A stretch of DNA of 64,000 bases from Nitrospinia bacterium. GTDB lineage: Bacteria; Nitrospinota; Nitrospinia; Nitrospinales; JAJDAT01. How positions within the stretch are numbered: the first letter of the stretch is position 1; each line of letters opens with the position of its first letter. Below the pieces are notes generated by a model. The model saw only the letters and a list, made by a program, of their open reading frames with translations, did not search any database and was not told where the DNA came from. The stretch spans positions 310,001 through 374,000 of the forward strand of contig JAJDAT010000014.1 in the NCBI GenBank assembly GCA_029261715.1, read 5' to 3'. Made by a program: the position numbers and the translations under genes. Positions 25,345 to 58,487 of this stretch are shown here, piece by piece.

Positions 25345-27720
25345 TCAAGAACCCGTCCCCAGTTTATCCATCAATTGTTTAATTATTTCTGCACCAGGAA
25401 AACCCGCCTGTTGGCCAATATCATAAGCCCTTTGCAAAATCGTCATACCTTCCTCTTTATTTCCATTAACAGCCAAGATCTGTCCCAAATATTTTCCTAC
25501 ATGAAAAAGTCCCATAGCGTCATTGGTTTCTTGAGCTAATTGATAGGCTTCCATCTCATACTCCACGGCTTGTTCTAAGTTTTGATTGGTAACTTCAATT
25601 AGAGTCATATTGTGGAGAGTTGGAATGAGTCCCGCTTTATCTCCTATTTCTCTCATGATTTTCAACGATTGCTTCAGATACTCAAGGGCTGTCGTGGTAT
25701 CTCCCTGGGATTGATAGATCTCGCCAATATTGTTCAGAGTCATACCTTCGCCACTCTTATCGCCTATTTCTCTCATGATTTTCAACGATTGTTTCCTGCA
25801 CTCAAGAGCCATGGAGATATCTCCTAGGGCTCGATATATCGAGCCAATATTGCCCAGAGCCACTCCTTCGACGCTTTTATCGCCTATTTCTCTCACGATT
25901 TTCAACGATTGTTCCAAATACTCACGGGCAGTGGCGTAATCTCCCTGTAATTGGTGGACCTGTCCAATATTACCCAGGGTCGCAGCTTCGCCGCTCTTAT
26001 CGCCTATTTCTCTCATGATTTTCAACGATTGTTCCAAATACTCAAGGGCCATGGCGGTATCTCCTTGGGATCGACAGATCTGACCAACATTACTCAGAGT
26101 CACGCCTTCGCCGCTCTTATCGCCTACTTCCCTCATGATTTTCAACGATTGTTCGAAATACTCCAGAGCCGTGGTGGTATCTCCCCGGGCTTGATATACC
26201 TGGCCGATATTACTCAGAGTCACGCCTTCACCGCTCTTATCGCTTATTCCTCGGCGGATTTTCAACGATTGTTCCAAATACTCCAGGGCCTTTGTATAAT
26301 TTCCTTGGGCTTGATATATCTGGCTAATATTATTTAAGGCAATACCTTTATCGCCCATTTCGGCTTTGGAAAGTGCAAATTGAAAGGAGAATAAAGCTTC
26401 TTCATATTTTCCAAAGCGTAACAAATTCATTCCAATTCGATTGCCACACCAAAAAGGGGCCGCATCCCCAAAAACGTCAAACGCTGTTTGAGCAATTTCG
26501 AGAGAATTGCGAAAAAGCGCTCGGTCATAATAAAATCCTGATAATTTATCCCCAATTTCATTTATACGAGCGCTATTGGCCGATCTGCAAAAATGATGGT
26601 ACGCCGCTTCATAATCGCTTATGTTACCGGCATGAATTCCATGAAACATATAGTAATGATATCGACCGGCTTTTTCGTGAAAATCTTCGGACGTATTTTC
26701 AATGTCTGTTTGGCGTTCTAAAAGGTTTTTCACCAAAGGCGGCATGAAATAATAGATCAAATCCGTTTCTCGATCCCAGTAAACCTGAATCAACGTCAAT
26801 TCTTTGAGCCTTTGTAATTTTGTCTTAGTGGCTTCGGCAAATCCTTGTAACTCAAAAGCGATGTCGATTACTGGAAGCGAAAAATGATATAAAATCTGCG
26901 CAATTTCTTGTTCATCAGAATCTAATTTTTGCCAGAGTTTTTCGAAAATAAATTTTTTAAAACTATCCATTTCAGGAAGAGCTTGATCTTTTGCCTTTTC
27001 GATTTCTTTCGCAAAAGACTCGAAATTTGCGAAATCGGTTTTCAAATTGTTCCCGTCATCTACAAACGCTTTCACAAAAAACTCTACAAATCGAAAGTTC
27101 CCGCCAACCGATTTGTAGAGAAACTCCATACGCTCTTCATTAAGGATAAACAACTTCAAGTCATAGCATTTGCGCGTGAAATCGTTGCGATCAATATCTT
27201 TTAAGTCAAACTCTTTAAACAATCCATCAAGCTCTTGAATGAGGTAACGTCCGGTTACAATCGTATGGATTTTAGGATGGCGGGCCGAATAATTGATAAT
27301 GGCAAGTGCCGCTTCATGATCAGTTAAAAACTCTTCAGTTTCCAGATTTTGAAACGACTCGACATTGTCGAATAAAATAAAAAGAAAAAAATGATCGCCT
27401 AGTTTTTTAAGCAACGATTGAATTTTTAGAACAACACTATCTCCCAAGTGTTCTAATTCTTTGATCCACTCGCTTTTGCCTTTATCCACGCTGAGGCTTT
27501 TTAATTGTTCCAACACTTTGTCTACAGAAAACTCTTTTCCCTCTTCGTTAAAAACAAAACAAACAGTGTCGGGATTCTTGGCACGTAATCGCTGAGCCAG
27601 CTTACGCGCAAACGTGGTTTTACCGATTCCTCCCTGACCTTTGAGTAAGATAGGTTGATTGTCAAAAAAAGCGGGAAGGATTTCCGCTAAATCTTCTCTA
27701 CGACCTACAAAGTCTTCCAC
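25345..27720 (-). CDS. NB-ARC-type STAND NTPase with TPR array (C-terminal part of a split CHAT-NB-ARC-TPR protein)
   Basis: 791 residues from a GTG at 27720, but the same frame stays open upstream to the TAA that ends the CHAT gene. The opening EDFVGRREDLAEILPAFFD is the usual lead into an NB-ARC domain. Walker A is GQGGIGKTT (28-36), Walker B FFLFILFDN, and IHTIVTGRYL is the sensor strand. A winged-helix region and helical linker (about 280-400) follow. Then at least eight 40-residue TPR (TPR_12/Kinesin-light-chain-like) units run to about 740, with the consensus YLEQSLKIMREIGDKSGEG. STAND ATPases hold an effector inactive until the repeat domain detects a ligand. Here the effector is the CHAT domain encoded just upstream. 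No convincing ribosome binding site precedes the GTG. Confidence 0.85.
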   Translation of the reverse strand: MEDFVGRREDLAEILPAFFDNQPILLKGQGGIGKTTFARKLAQRLRAKNPDTVCFVFNEEGKEFSVDKVLEQLKSLSVDKGKSEWIKELEHLGDSVVLKIQSLLKKLGDHFFLFILFDNVESFQNLETEEFLTDHEAALAIINYSARHPKIHTIVTGRYLIQELDGLFKEFDLKDIDRNDFTRKCYDLKLFILNEERMEFLYKSVGGNFRFVEFFVKAFVDDGNNLKTDFANFESFAKEIEKAKDQALPEMDSFKKFIFEKLWQKLDSDEQEIAQILYHFSLPVIDIAFELQGFAEATKTKLQRLKELTLIQVYWDRETDLIYYFMPPLVKNLLERQTDIENTSEDFHEKAGRYHYYMFHGIHAGNISDYEAAYHHFCRSANSARINEIGDKLSGFYYDRALFRNSLEIAQTAFDVFGDAAPFWCGNRIGMNLLRFGKYEEALFSFQFALSKAEMGDKGIALNNISQIYQAQGNYTKALEYLEQSLKIRRGISDKSGEGVTLSNIGQVYQARGDTTTALEYFEQSLKIMREVGDKSGEGVTLSNVGQICRSQGDTAMALEYLEQSLKIMREIGDKSGEAATLGNIGQVHQLQGDYATAREYLEQSLKIVREIGDKSVEGVALGNIGSIYRALGDISMALECRKQSLKIMREIGDKSGEGMTLNNIGEIYQSQGDTTTALEYLKQSLKIMREIGDKAGLIPTLHNMTLIEVTNQNLEQAVEYEMEAYQLAQETNDAMGLFHVGKYLGQILAVNGNKEEGMTILQRAYDIGQQAGFPGAEIIKQLMDKLGTGS
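25610..26340 (-). repeat. Tandem 120-bp repeats encoding near-identical TPR units
   Basis: About six copies of a 120-base unit with strong DNA identity; the plus-strand text ATTTTCAACGATTGTTCC or a close variant recurs every 120 bases (near 25658, 25778, 25898, 26018, 26138 and 26258). Each unit encodes one 40-residue TPR. The level of identity implies recent duplication or gene conversion, and the unit number may vary between strains. Confidence 0.9.
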
Positions 27721-27849
27721 TCCAGATTGTTGTAAGGTTGAGTTGACAAAAAGTCCACCGGCAATTTCTGGAGCTAGTTTTTTAAATTCTTGTTTCCAAT
27801 CTACAACTTCAGTTTTCCCGAAAAGATATAGATTGGGGATAACCCATTA
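27721..27849 (-). other. In-frame linker with a single stop codon joining CHAT and NB-ARC frames
   Basis: The stop of the CHAT gene is TAA at 27847-27849. The next 42 codons are open in exactly the same frame (WVIPNLYLFGKTEVVDWKQE, then FKKLAPEIAGGLFVNSTLQQ) and lead straight into EDFVGRRED of the NB-ARC protein. This segment reads as real protein, so the two genes are one gene interrupted by one nonsense codon. A CAA (Gln) to TAA transition would explain it. Confidence 0.85.
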
Positions 27850-28848
27850 CATGGGAACACCGCCAAGATTGGCTTTGTGAAGGTTTTTCGCTTCTTCTTC
27901 CTTCACCGTATTACAAGCTTTTTTGAAAGCTTCTTGGATGGTTGTTTTTTGAGAAATACCGTCATAAAAAGTTGCAGCAAACGAAGTGGCATAATCATCT
28001 AAAATACTCAAACCCATAGAAACGACGGAAGGAACTCCCTTTTGCAAAAGTGCGATGGTCACTCCGGCCATGCCTTTTTCTAAATTGGCCTGCGCCGTTT
28101 TACAGGAACATAAAACCACTAAAGGAATCGTATGACTTGGTTTTAAAACCGCTTCGGCAAAAACGTTAGCGCCAATCGATTCTGAATTAAGACTCAAGTC
28201 ATTTTCTAAAAGTAAACGCCCTTCGCCCTTTTCTTCGTCAAAATTACCGTGCCCCGTGAAGTGGAGTATATGATAATTATTTTGACTGATTTTACGTTTC
28301 AACGCAGCTAGCGAACCGTTGTCGGTGAAATCGATTTGGACTTCGCCGCTTCTATAAAGAGGTTTGAACGATTTTAAAATTTGCCGTTCTTCCTTTTCAT
28401 AATTCAAACGGCCTTTTACCTGAACATCCTTTGGCGATGAGATCATCACCAAAACTTTGAGCGGTCCGCCTTTTAAATTTTGTTCTTTGCTTGGAGTTTC
28501 CAGACAATTTTTGCTTATAAATAATCGATCAATTTCATTCAGCGGCTTTTTGGAAGCAGGATCGATTGCGATTTCCCAGGGAAGATTGAGAATTTCTGTG
28601 TCTGGGTGGAATAAATTGACGTGGTAAAAATCGCCGCTACTTTTTATTTGGCTTAGAACTGCGATTAACTCAGGATTATTCGCAACGGCTTGCGTTAGTT
28701 TTTCTTTTAGTTCTTCAAAAATAGTTGGCGACAATCGCGCCTTCTCTTCCAAAAACTCTACCGCTTTTTTGAAGCTGGCTTTTAGGTCTTGCTCCGTTTC
28801 TGAGGGGAGATTTAGTGTGATTTTTTCGAAGATCATAAAGAAAACCAT
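27847..28848 (-). CDS. CHAT-domain (caspase-like) protein, N-terminal part of a split protein
   Basis: 333 residues. After a helical N-terminal domain (about 1-75) comes the CHAT fold: LPWEIAID, a strand VLVMISSPKD, ILHFTGHGNF with the catalytic His200, and VVLCSCKTAQANLEKGMAGV with the catalytic Cys249, then GVPSVVSMGLSILDDYATSF and FYDGI. Both residues of the His-Cys dyad are present, so proteolytic activity is possible. CHAT proteases are effectors in bacterial immunity and cell-death modules, usually fused to or next to TPR or STAND sensors. Here the frame continues after one TAA into an NB-ARC-TPR sensor. An ATG five codons in (28836) is an alternative start; no good ribosome binding site supports either. 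Confidence 0.88.
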   Translation of the reverse strand: MVFFMIFEKITLNLPSETEQDLKASFKKAVEFLEEKARLSPTIFEELKEKLTQAVANNPELIAVLSQIKSSGDFYHVNLFHPDTEILNLPWEIAIDPASKKPLNEIDRLFISKNCLETPSKEQNLKGGPLKVLVMISSPKDVQVKGRLNYEKEERQILKSFKPLYRSGEVQIDFTDNGSLAALKRKISQNNYHILHFTGHGNFDEEKGEGRLLLENDLSLNSESIGANVFAEAVLKPSHTIPLVVLCSCKTAQANLEKGMAGVTIALLQKGVPSVVSMGLSILDDYATSFAATFYDGISQKTTIQEAFKKACNTVKEEEAKNLHKANLGGVPM

Positions 28849-28852
28849 TTTT

Positions 28853-28880
28853 ACCGCAAAGGCGCAAAGAACGCGAAGGA
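28853..28880. repeat. Short dispersed repeat
   Basis: CCGCAAAGGCGCAAAGAACG and the following CGAAGG match a short intergenic repeat common in unrelated bacterial genomes. It lies between the CHAT and zinc-ribbon genes. Confidence 0.45.
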
Positions 28881-28924
28881 TTCTTTAAAACCTTTCGAAG
28901 GTAACTGCCTTACATCAGCATTAA

Positions 28925-53991: not shown

Positions 53992-54567
53992 CTAATTAAT
54001 ACCTCTACCATGTGACAAGGCAACTGTAGTTTGAAGCGCTGCAGAATCATGCGCATCACCTACAAATTCCATAGCAAATCCCGTACTACTTGAAGGAATT
54101 ACTATAGCTCCCCACATAGAGATCTGATTCAAATTGTTAAGTTTGAGACCGTTAGTTACAGCAACCGTAGGGTTGGTAGCATTTAGGCTCATTCTTAACT
54201 GACCGCTCTGACCAGAACCACTGGTAGCAGCGACAAACAATACATTTGTATCAGTAATGGTACTACTATTAATCGTACTATGATTTGTCGAAACAACAAA
54301 TATTCTGTAAGTCTCGCCAGCTCCAATAGTAAAAGAAGTCGATGTGACAGTATCGCTAAAACCGACTGCCGCCATCGTCAAACCGATTTGAGTAACAGCC
54401 GTATTCAAAGATGGATGGGTAATACCAACGAAAGAATACGTTGAATTAGCATCCGTTTGAACATACGGTGAAACAGCGGTTCTATTCTTTGGAACTGCAT
54501 AAGCACTTTGGACAGAAACCAAAAATGCCAGCAAGATTATAAGCACAAAAAAGTGTGTCTTTCTCAT
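53992..54567 (-). CDS. Small secreted protein, tandem paralogue 1, function unknown
   Basis: 191 residues from the ATG at 54567, preceded by GGAGAG; an earlier in-frame start at 54597 is rejected. Signal peptide ends at QSAYAVPKN. The mature part is Ser/Thr/Asn-rich and beta-strand-like: AVSPYVQTDANSTYSFVGIT, FRIFVVSTNHSTINSSTIT-type and GAIVIPSSSTGFAMEFVGDA HDSA. The same blocks appear in the neighbouring gene, so they form a family I cannot name. Two genes in a row, close together and ended by a strong terminator, suggest an abundantly made surface or extracellular product. Confidence 0.75.
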   Translation of the reverse strand: MRKTHFFVLIILLAFLVSVQSAYAVPKNRTAVSPYVQTDANSTYSFVGITHPSLNTAVTQIGLTMAAVGFSDTVTSTSFTIGAGETYRIFVVSTNHSTINSSTITDTNVLFVAATSGSGQSGQLRMSLNATNPTVAVTNGLKLNNLNQISMWGAIVIPSSSTGFAMEFVGDAHDSAALQTTVALSHGRGIN

Positions 54568-54615
54568 TAGCCTCTCTCCTTTAACACAAATTACCAAATT
54601 TATAAGCTAGATAGT

Positions 54616-55200
54616 TTAGTTTAAACCCACAGGCAACTCACTCAATATAGCAGAAGTGAGAACGCTAAACACCGAATCGTGAGTATCACCAATGAACTCC
54701 ATAGCAAAACCGGAACTTGCGCTGGAAACAACTATAGCACCCCAGTAGTTCAATGCCGTAGCATCCGTCAACCGATTAATCGGAATAAGCGGGCTAGTAG
54801 CGCGAGGGGTGAATACTAGAGAACCAGACGAAGAGGTAGTCGTTCCTGATATAAACACAACATCACTTGCCGTTATGGTCGAAGTGTTGATCGTTGAGTG
54901 ATTTGTCGCAACGACAAAAATCCTGGTAGTACTATTCTCAGATACAGTAAAAGCGGTCGTGCCAAAAGTACTAGTGCCATCGTTACTAACTGCTTGCATA
55001 ATAACGCCAATTTGGGAACTCATAAGATCCAAGGAGCCGTGAGAGATAGACACGAATGTATATGCATCTCCATCGGATTGCCAATAAGGCGAAACCACCG
55101 ATGTACTATTTGTAATTGCAAACGCGTTTGCCGCGCTGAATATAAGCAAGGCCATGGCTGCGATAAAAACAGAGAATCGCGTAATGATCTTGTTTTTCAT
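54616..55200 (-). CDS. Small secreted protein, tandem paralogue 2, function unknown
   Basis: 194 residues with a signal peptide ending at ANAFAITNS and AGGAG upstream of the ATG. It matches the next gene along its length: VVSPYWQSDGDAYTFVSISH for AVSPYVQTDANSTYSFVGIT, IFVVATNHSTINTSTITASD VVF, and GAIVVSSASSGFAMEFIGDT HDS. No Cys or catalytic pattern is seen. An AT-rich region of 370 bases upstream must hold the promoter. Confidence 0.75.
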   Translation of the reverse strand: MKNKIITRFSVFIAAMALLIFSAANAFAITNSTSVVSPYWQSDGDAYTFVSISHGSLDLMSSQIGVIMQAVSNDGTSTFGTTAFTVSENSTTRIFVVATNHSTINTSTITASDVVFISGTTTSSSGSLVFTPRATSPLIPINRLTDATALNYWGAIVVSSASSGFAMEFIGDTHDSVFSVLTSAILSELPVGLN

Positions 55201-55569: not shown

Positions 55570-56097
55570 TCAATAAGTTATCAAAGAAAACACATCGGTG
55601 TCACCTAATTTTTCTTTACCATTTAAAAAGCAAAGCTCTATTAAAAAAACCGTTTCTACTATATCAACCTGAAAATTATTCCTAACTAGTTTAACCGCAG
55701 CTGAAGCTGTGCCTCCAGTTGCCAAAACATCGTCAATTATTAAAATTCTTTGACCTTCAAGAATGGCATCTTTATGGATTTCAATACTATCAACGCCATA
55801 CTCTAATTCATAACTTTCCTGAAATGTTTGATAAGGAAGCTTACCTGGCTTTCGAACAATAGCAAGCCCGGCTCCAAGTGCATAAGCTAAACTCGCTCCA
55901 AAAATAAAACCTCGCGCCTCAATCCCCAACACAACATCAATTTTTTTATCTTGGTAACGGTCTCTTAATCGATCCGTCAACTTTTTGAACACTTTTCCAT
56001 TGCTCAGCACTGGGGTTATATCTTTAAAAATTATTCCTGGCTTTGGAAAATCGGGAATATCCCTTATTAACGCTTTAACTTCTTCCATAAAATCCAC
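55570..56097 (-). CDS. apt: Adenine phosphoribosyltransferase
   Basis: 175 residues. It salvages adenine to AMP with PRPP. Visible motifs: IRDIPDFPKPGIIFKDITPV, VVLGIEARGFIFGASLAYAL, RKPGKLPY, and the PRPP-binding RILIIDDVLATGGTASAAVK. Normal length. It follows the LysM-M23 gene by 96 bases on the same strand. Confidence 0.96.
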   Translation of the reverse strand: MDFMEEVKALIRDIPDFPKPGIIFKDITPVLSNGKVFKKLTDRLRDRYQDKKIDVVLGIEARGFIFGASLAYALGAGLAIVRKPGKLPYQTFQESYELEYGVDSIEIHKDAILEGQRILIIDDVLATGGTASAAVKLVRNNFQVDIVETVFLIELCFLNGKEKLGDTDVFSLITY

Positions 56098-56193: not shown

Positions 56194-56949
56194 CTATTTA
56201 ATTTTCCTTTTTGGAAGGTATTTCAATGGATTTACCGCTTGAGCGTTACTACGGATTTCAAAATGTAAATGCGGACCAGTGGAACGACCTGTACTTCCCA
56301 TTGAAGCAATTTTTTGTCCTTGCTTAACTTTTAACCCTCTACCTACATGATTTGAGGAATTATGAGCATATACAGACATTAAACCATTTTCATGCTTTAT
56401 TATCACCATCAGCCCATAACCTGTTGGTCCCGTTCCGCTAAATACTATCTTACCCGAAGCCGACGCATAGATGGGAGTGCCTTTTCTATTAGCGATATCA
56501 AGTCCATCGTGATGCCTTTTACCTCTAATTCCATACTTGGAAGTTATAGTTCCTTTTTCTACAGGCCATACAAAAAAGTTTTTCGAGGGTTTAGGGAAAG
56601 AAACTTTTTTAACTTTGGGTTTTGGCTTAACAGTTTTCTGTTTTTTAGCAGAACGGGTTTTAGAAGTTGGTAAAACCTCTAAAACTCTTAAGGCGCCAGG
56701 TATCCATAAACGACGACCAACCCGCAACTTAGTGGGATCGGAAATACCATTAACTCGCTTAAGGCTATTTAGGTCTACCCCATATACCGTAGCTATACGA
56801 TAAAGCGTTTGCCCTGGTTTAACCGCATGGTAAACACCAATGGATCGTTTGTCTAAAAGCCCTCCGAAACACCCAGAAAAAAGAAAAGCGCTTAACCCAA
56901 TCCAAGGTAATGCCGTAATTAGAGATGTAAAGAATCGCTTTAATTTAAT
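56194..56949 (-). CDS. LysM and M23-peptidase (NlpD-like) lipoprotein with no standard start codon
   Basis: The frame opens after a TAG at 56965-56967 and runs to the stop at 56194. Within it are a basic N-terminus and membrane segment (ITALPWIGLSAFLFSGC, lipobox Cys), a LysM domain (YHAVKPGQTLYRIATVYGVD LNSLKRVNG), and an M23 domain (ITSKYGIRGKRHHDGLDIAN to GPHLHFEIR). M23 metal ligands H-x3-D and HxH are both present. No in-frame ATG, GTG or TTG precedes the signal segment; the first is a TTG at 56727 inside LysM, which would remove the lipobox and half of LysM. An ATT at 56949, ten bases after GGAG, gives 251 residues and is the best candidate. Expected role: cell-wall hydrolase or activator in division. 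Confidence 0.78.
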   Translation of the reverse strand: MKLKRFFTSLITALPWIGLSAFLFSGCFGGLLDKRSIGVYHAVKPGQTLYRIATVYGVDLNSLKRVNGISDPTKLRVGRRLWIPGALRVLEVLPTSKTRSAKKQKTVKPKPKVKKVSFPKPSKNFFVWPVEKGTITSKYGIRGKRHHDGLDIANRKGTPIYASASGKIVFSGTGPTGYGLMVIIKHENGLMSVYAHNSSNHVGRGLKVKQGQKIASMGSTGRSTGPHLHFEIRSNAQAVNPLKYLPKRKIK

Positions 56950-57057
56950 TTTCCGATTTCTCCACTATATTTTTTATTTTGAAGGGATTTTAAAATAAAA
57001 AAACCTTAATAATCGTTCTCTTTACAAAGCAAACAAATTATTGTATAAAAAGGAATT

Positions 57058-57347: not shown

Positions 57348-58487
57348 ATGCTGTTTAAAGTTCGCCATTTTTTTTATTTTTTCGCGCTTTTCTTAATATT
57401 GTCATGTTCACCCGGCGAAAACAATAAACCAAGTCCTTTTGGACTACCTGTCACCTATCCTGTTGGAGAAAAACCCGTTGGCTTAGTTGCAGAGGACATG
57501 AATAAAGACGGCTATCCTGATTTACTAATCCCGAACACTGGGAATAATACTCTTTATTTTTATGAAGGTAATGGCGACGGAACTTTTAAAAAAGCCGTCG
57601 TTATGAAAACAGGTAGAGAACCAATGGCTTTGACCGTAGCTGATTTTGACGGCGATGGACTTCCAGATATTGCCCTCTGTAATTATGGAGACAATAACAT
57701 TTCCATTATTTTGGGTCAAAAAGACGGCTTATTTAAAGTTAGTAATAAAGTCAAAACAGGTAGACTTCCCATTGCTATCGAAACCTCTGATTTTAATGGC
57801 GATGGCTCTATCGATCTTGCCGTCACTTTGAGATTTAATAAATTAATGATTTTTTTAGGAGTGGGGGATGGCACATTCAAAACTGGAGAAGCTTATAAAG
57901 CAACTGGAACCCCTGCGGACTTAGTCGCCGGAGACTTTAATAACGATAAACATCCAGATATCGCTATTGCTTCAAACGCTATTAAAGCAAATTATATCAA
58001 ATTATTTTACGGCAATGGCGACGGCACATTCAAAAACCCAAAAAAAATCCTTGGCGCCAAGCAATCTAACTATATCGCACAATACGATTTAAATAATGAC
58101 GCTATTCAGGATCTGATTCTTACTAATCCTCTAGCAGATAGCATTACATTATTTATTGGGAACAAAGAAGGCGATTTTATAGTTCAGCCCGATGTTGCTG
58201 GAGAAAAAGGACCTCAGTATGTTGTTGCAGGAGAATTTACTGGAGATAATGCGATCGACTTAGTTGTAACAAATCGCCGAGACAATTCAATTTCTATATT
58301 GGAAGGAAGAGGAAATGGAAGCTTTATATTCCCGCATTATAATTATCCAGTTGGCCCAGATCCCCGGGCAATGGCGGCAGCAGATTTCAATAATGACGGT
58401 TTGACTGATATTGCATTAATTTTACATCAAAGAAAACTAGTTGAAATTTTAATGAGGAGTCATGGAACTCCCGATCCAATCGATTAA
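57348..58487 (+). CDS. FG-GAP/VCBS-repeat lipoprotein
   Basis: 379 residues. A lipoprotein signal (ALFLILSCSPG) is followed by about seven FG-GAP (VCBS) repeats with calcium-binding loops such as DMNKDGYPDLLIPN, DFDGDGLPDIALCN, DFNGDGSIDLAVT and DFNNDGLTDIALI. They build a beta propeller of the integrin alpha type that binds ligands with bound calcium. No enzymatic domain is present. It likely sits on the cell surface or in the periplasm. Confidence 0.9.
   Translation: MLFKVRHFFYFFALFLILSCSPGENNKPSPFGLPVTYPVGEKPVGLVAEDMNKDGYPDLLIPNTGNNTLYFYEGNGDGTFKKAVVMKTGREPMALTVADFDGDGLPDIALCNYGDNNISIILGQKDGLFKVSNKVKTGRLPIAIETSDFNGDGSIDLAVTLRFNKLMIFLGVGDGTFKTGEAYKATGTPADLVAGDFNNDKHPDIAIASNAIKANYIKLFYGNGDGTFKNPKKILGAKQSNYIAQYDLNNDAIQDLILTNPLADSITLFIGNKEGDFIVQPDVAGEKGPQYVVAGEFTGDNAIDLVVTNRRDNSISILEGRGNGSFIFPHYNYPVGPDPRAMAAADFNNDGLTDIALILHQRKLVEILMRSHGTPDPID

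Follow-up and report, generated by a model that had tools for sequence, protein, structure and literature searches.

How is translation of a conserved lipoprotein gene initiated when its reading frame contains no canonical start codon ahead of the signal peptide? The question is raised by a minus-strand frame (56964-56194) in the 64,000-nucleotide stretch of DNA analysed here, called the window below. After an in-frame TAG (56967-56965), the frame reads TGG AGA AAT CGG AAA ATT(56949) AAA TTA AAG CGA TTC TTT and stays open down to a TAA at 56194. The original prediction stated that ATG, GTG and TTG are missing before the signal segment, which was confirmed: none occurs before codon 79, a TTG at 56727 at the end of the LysM domain. 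This first canonical start codon falls inside the mature protein, and the coding signal (hexamer coding score) reaches far 5' of it. The gene and its start region comprise the following features:

56965..56967, minus strand: in-frame TAG, the 5' limit of the frame (sequence)
56960..56963, minus strand: GGAG, Shine-Dalgarno-like, 10 nt before the ATT (aligned spacing 9; sequence)
56947..56949, minus strand: proposed ATT initiation codon, the sole near-cognate codon with GGAG on its 5' side and a charged signal n-region on its 3' side
56194..56949, minus strand: LysM-M23 lipoprotein gene (ActS/NlpD-like) with putative ATT start at 56949, TAA stop, 251 aa (sequence, domains, 44 orthologues in the order)
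56927..56965, minus strand: predicted hairpin, marginal, pairing the GGAG region with bases 3' of the start and placing the ATT in a 16-nt loop (-9.2 kcal/mol, z -2.5)

Five codons that differ from ATG by one change precede the lipobox cysteine, namely ATT 56949, AAG 56940, ATT 56919, ACG 56916 and ATT 56901. Among them, ATT 56949 alone has GGAG upstream and keeps the signal peptide's K-L-K-R n-region, in agreement with its earlier designation as the only plausible start near a GGAG. The GGAG is a 4-base Shine-Dalgarno match at an aligned spacing of 9, a degree of match also shown by approximately 13% of control positions. When folded in a 151-nt context, the start-region hairpin was not significant. 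An Rfam search of the leader returned no known RNA element, and a promoter scan found no more sites than in shuffled sequences. In the assembly, the exact match to the anti-Shine-Dalgarno sequence GGATCACCTCCTTT falls outside any Rfam-recognised 16S gene, and no 16S 3' end was confirmed.

Read from ATT 56949, the N-terminus would be M-KLKR-FFTSLITALPWIGLSAFLFSGC, the positively charged start of a signal peptide, and the signal segment, lipobox, LysM and M23 domains of the original prediction were all recovered:

56869..56949, minus strand: lipoprotein signal peptide and lipobox (MKLKRFF...LFSGC; sequence, compared with orthologue signal peptides)
56698..56829, minus strand: LysM domain, residues 41-84 (Pfam PF01476, 5.7e-13)
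56227..56514, minus strand: M23 peptidase domain, residues 146-241, with intact HxxxD, YAH and HxH motifs (Pfam PF01551, 7.7e-36)

The order of lipoprotein signal, LysM and M23 fits the ActS/NlpD-like LysM-M23 lipoproteins, and relatives with solved structures include DipM and EnvC. Among curated families, the amidase activator ActS (YgeR; NF040883) comes nearest; it is matched over nearly the full length (2.2e-49) at 167.9 bits against a curated cut-off of 375, so that the protein is a relative of ActS and is not filed as ActS. It shares the architecture of ActS and NlpD and scores below the cut-off (168 vs 375 bits). In the NlpD/EnvC-type activators of E. coli the zinc motifs are degenerate, whereas the LysM-M23 protein retains the HxxxD and HxH zinc motifs. 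Because the M23 motifs HDGLD, YAH and HLH are present, the protein may be an active enzyme. No second full-length copy of the gene was found in the same genome.

Orthologues were sought in 64 genomes of the order at a threshold of E<=1e-40, and matches were obtained in 53 of them, the window genome included; the named relatives in the first search were Nitrospina and Nitrospinaceae MAGs, suggesting membership of this order for the window. An in-frame ATG 5' of LysM was present in all 44 orthologous loci examined (identities of approximately 45-60% at the level of the order), mostly 20-23 codons ahead of the lipobox cysteine. The ATT is thus shared by no relative among these 44 order-level orthologues and is private to the lineage of the window genome. 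As this genome is the sole member of its family in the compared set, the comparison operates at the level of the order and gives no date within the family for the change from ATG to ATT. The genes on either side are:

55570..56088, minus strand: apt-like phosphoribosyltransferase, downstream, same order in relatives
57348..58487, plus strand: FG-GAP repeat lipoprotein, divergent, upstream, same order in relatives

The order FG-GAP, LysM-M23, apt recurs in the relatives inspected, indicating that the LysM-M23 gene is an orthologue that has kept its ancestral position; with gene order conserved, loss of an upstream coupled gene was rejected as the cause of the ATT. The original prediction had named in advance an ATG at this position in a homologue as refuting an ATT start. 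Such an ATG was found in 44 of 44 loci. This establishes the change as lineage-specific; it does not tell a genuine substitution from an error, nor an AUU-initiated gene from one that has lost its function. Elsewhere in this part of the window (53992-55200, minus strand) lie two adjoining similar secreted proteins of approximately 195-200 aa without Pfam match, which are paralogues by eye (THPSLNT / SHGSLDL, NHSTINSSTIT / NHSTINTSTIT).

In the window genome alone, a survey sought genes in which the coding signal is already present a good way 5' of the earliest canonical start codon, initially over 1.66 Mb (1,472 genes) and then over 2.40 Mb (2,099 genes). Genes such as infC, in which a canonical codon follows closely on the true start, escape this approach. 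The survey recovered the LysM-M23 gene and a FetB-like permease gene at C16:96002, and the further 740 kb yielded no new ATT case. In the 1.66 Mb, the frequency of ATT codons behind strong Shine-Dalgarno sites was 3.8% compared to 2.6% in the background; since this is no clear enrichment, ATT starts are rare in this genome. Wholesale ATT initiation was rejected on the same ground and because the additional 740 kb gave nothing new. Outside the window, two genes deserve description:

G000:C16:95301-96002 (L193:15301-16002), minus strand: FetB-like (UPF0014) permease with ATT start, AAGGAG upstream, ATG in relatives
G000:C14:273193-273540 (L162:13193-13540), plus strand: HigB/Gp49-like toxin gene with possible ATT start, no canonical start before the conserved N-terminus

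The FetB-like gene begins AAGGAGAAATGAA-ATT, with the arrangement AAGGAG-AAATGAA-ATT, and four relatives (51-52% identity) carry ATG at exactly the ATT codon in a gapless N-terminal alignment. The HigB/Gp49-like gene (C14:273193) reads GAGGGTAGGAAA-ATT; its ATT was kept as a possible start and not counted as a third new case because the start codons of its relatives lie several codons farther 5'. Neither relatives nor start evidence supported C14:601, C49:315037 and other candidates, which were likewise not counted.

The original prediction had drawn a parallel to the ATT starts of infC and pcnB, of which the infC half holds in this genome. Its infC (L131) reads TTAGGAGGACGATCG-ATT-AAA-AAA, an ATT start preceded by AGGAGG with the spacing AGGAGG-N7-ATT, which makes the comparison apt. 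The infC genes of the 21 examined genomes of the order (L126-L146) all start with ATT, ATC or ATA; in two of them a TTG also lies in frame, two to four codons ahead of this start. Non-AUG infC across the order is consistent with a working IF3 loop and is no test of the LysM-M23 gene. The pcnB half was rejected as a parallel within the genome, since neither of the two pcnB-like genes starts with ATT: one most likely uses GTG (its frame opens ATC ATT GTG) and the other ATG.

A true ATT start at 56949 is the most likely reading of the LysM-M23 gene, with a probability of approximately 0.78 as judged from sequence; it is best supported because the gene is conserved and intact, other ATT starts exist in the genome and the error rate is low. 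That the true codon is ATG, hidden by an assembly substitution error or a minor strain variant, would agree with ATG in 44 of 44 orthologues and with the draft state of the assembly (52 contigs), but we consider it unlikely. Among the 2,099 genes, five candidates for a gene split by an in-frame stop were flagged, and a CHAT/ATPase-TPR pair of the window brings the number to six; several could be genuine mutations or simply adjacent genes. Counting all stop-splits as errors gives a ceiling of <=~6.7e-5 per base, from which 0.04-0.05 ATG-to-ATT errors are expected in 2,099 genes (P ~0.001 for the two seen), on the round figures of 2.0 Mb coding length and 4.5% stop-making substitutions and with indels counted less rigorously. 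Moreover, errors should scatter over seven non-canonical codons, whereas the second independent case, the FetB-like gene, and infC are also ATT. The FetB-like case and the small number of disrupted genes therefore weigh against assembly error.

In the CHAT/ATPase-TPR pair (25345-28884, minus strand), an AAA/NACHT-like ATPase-TPR ORF (25345-27846) follows a CHAT-domain ORF (27847-28884) in the same frame, the two being divided by a single TAA (27849-27847); the ATPase-TPR ORF has no ATG, GTG or TTG for 42 codons. The pair looks like one CHAT-ATPase-TPR protein interrupted by a stop codon, or like a case of readthrough.

Other readings of the LysM-M23 start involve an off-frame GTG at 56965, which the loss of a single A from the AAAA run at 56952-56949 would place in frame. 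Such a homopolymer indel would let this GTG open the frame (M-E-K-S-E-I-K-L-K-R...), and the GTG frame does run six codons to a TAA just beyond the A run; inspection of the sequence before GTG 56965 revealed no Shine-Dalgarno-like element, the few disrupted genes in the sample give no sign of pervasive indel errors, and the FetB-like ATT aligns residue for residue with the ATG of its relatives, all of which make an indel very improbable. The same six codons, ending AAT TAA and adjoining the LysM-M23 frame, might be taken as the entry to a programmed +1 frameshift. This is hardly credible, given that GTG 56965 lacks a Shine-Dalgarno sequence, the P-site codon AAT would be expected to re-pair poorly on ATT, and the orthologues use ATG with nothing comparable. 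Finally, the missing canonical start and the ATG in relatives could mark a young pseudogene that has lost its start, but the 251 intact codons with intact catalytic motifs, a best order-level identity of approximately 58-60% and the lack of another full-length copy in the genome render this most implausible.

If the ATT is the true start, the gene would be functional and an ancestral ATG would have changed to ATT in the lineage of the window genome. The GGAG would position ribosomes for AUU initiation with initiator tRNA, and therefore the protein would still begin with methionine. Initiation at this AUU would be weak and output low; IF3 would repress it, and enzyme output would rise when IF3 is scarce. 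Expression of the LysM-M23 gene is thus probably low and IF3-repressed. Retention of a non-canonical start in relatives, a supporting mark of IF3-repressed genes, was not seen, ATG being present in 44 of 44 orthologues. The occurrence of ATT in the LysM-M23, infC and FetB-like genes hints at a small gene set kept low by IF3. A set of IF3-controlled AUU genes comprising infC, the LysM-M23 enzyme, the FetB-like iron-efflux permease and possibly the HigB-like toxin, arisen from ATG-to-ATT changes and making the supply of initiation factor bear on envelope and metal functions, is a speculative extension that we regard as doubtful.

AUU starts under IF3 control are already known, and the LysM-M23 gene adds one putative example. 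IF3 repression of non-canonical starts is established for E. coli infC, where IF3 is autoregulated through the AUU start, and for Streptomyces sigR (PMC5472188). In E. coli infC the AUU stands behind a Shine-Dalgarno sequence, an arrangement shared by infC of the window genome; the non-AUG start of infC is conserved, whereas the ATT of the LysM-M23 gene is lineage-private and the gene encodes a cell-wall lipoprotein. The GTC start of sigR, experimentally shown to be repressed by IF3 and conserved among streptomycetes (PMC5472188), likewise lies outside the translation machinery, but differs in its codon and in being experimentally supported and conserved. The AUU start of S. aureus cvfC1, mapped by ribosome profiling and associated with reduced yield (PMC13009471), is also outside infC, as proposed here; it is conserved and has a long extended Shine-Dalgarno sequence in addition to the profiling support, in contrast to the weak Shine-Dalgarno match of the LysM-M23 gene. 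E. coli pcnB has the second AUU start on that chromosome (work of Binns and Masters 2002, as cited in PMC13009471). It resembles the LysM-M23 gene, with its presumably low output, as an ordinary gene kept low by inefficient AUU initiation, and differs in function and in that the pcnB-like genes of the window genome are not ATT-started.

Two lineage-specific ATG-to-ATT changes together with an ATT-started infC in one genome provide a testable case for the origin of such starts, and the same genome bears on whether the IF3 level then controls unrelated genes. To our knowledge, few bacterial genes beyond infC have an AUU start. Common gene finders accept only ATG, GTG and TTG, and AUU starts escape them; here, a gene finder would call a truncated protein from 56727 with no signal, no lipobox and little of LysM. 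Separately, several Rhs-type C-terminal fragments (YYRARYYDPEVGRFLTEDP) without starts of their own lie at G000:C25:596895-600872, resembling Rhs cassette arrays.
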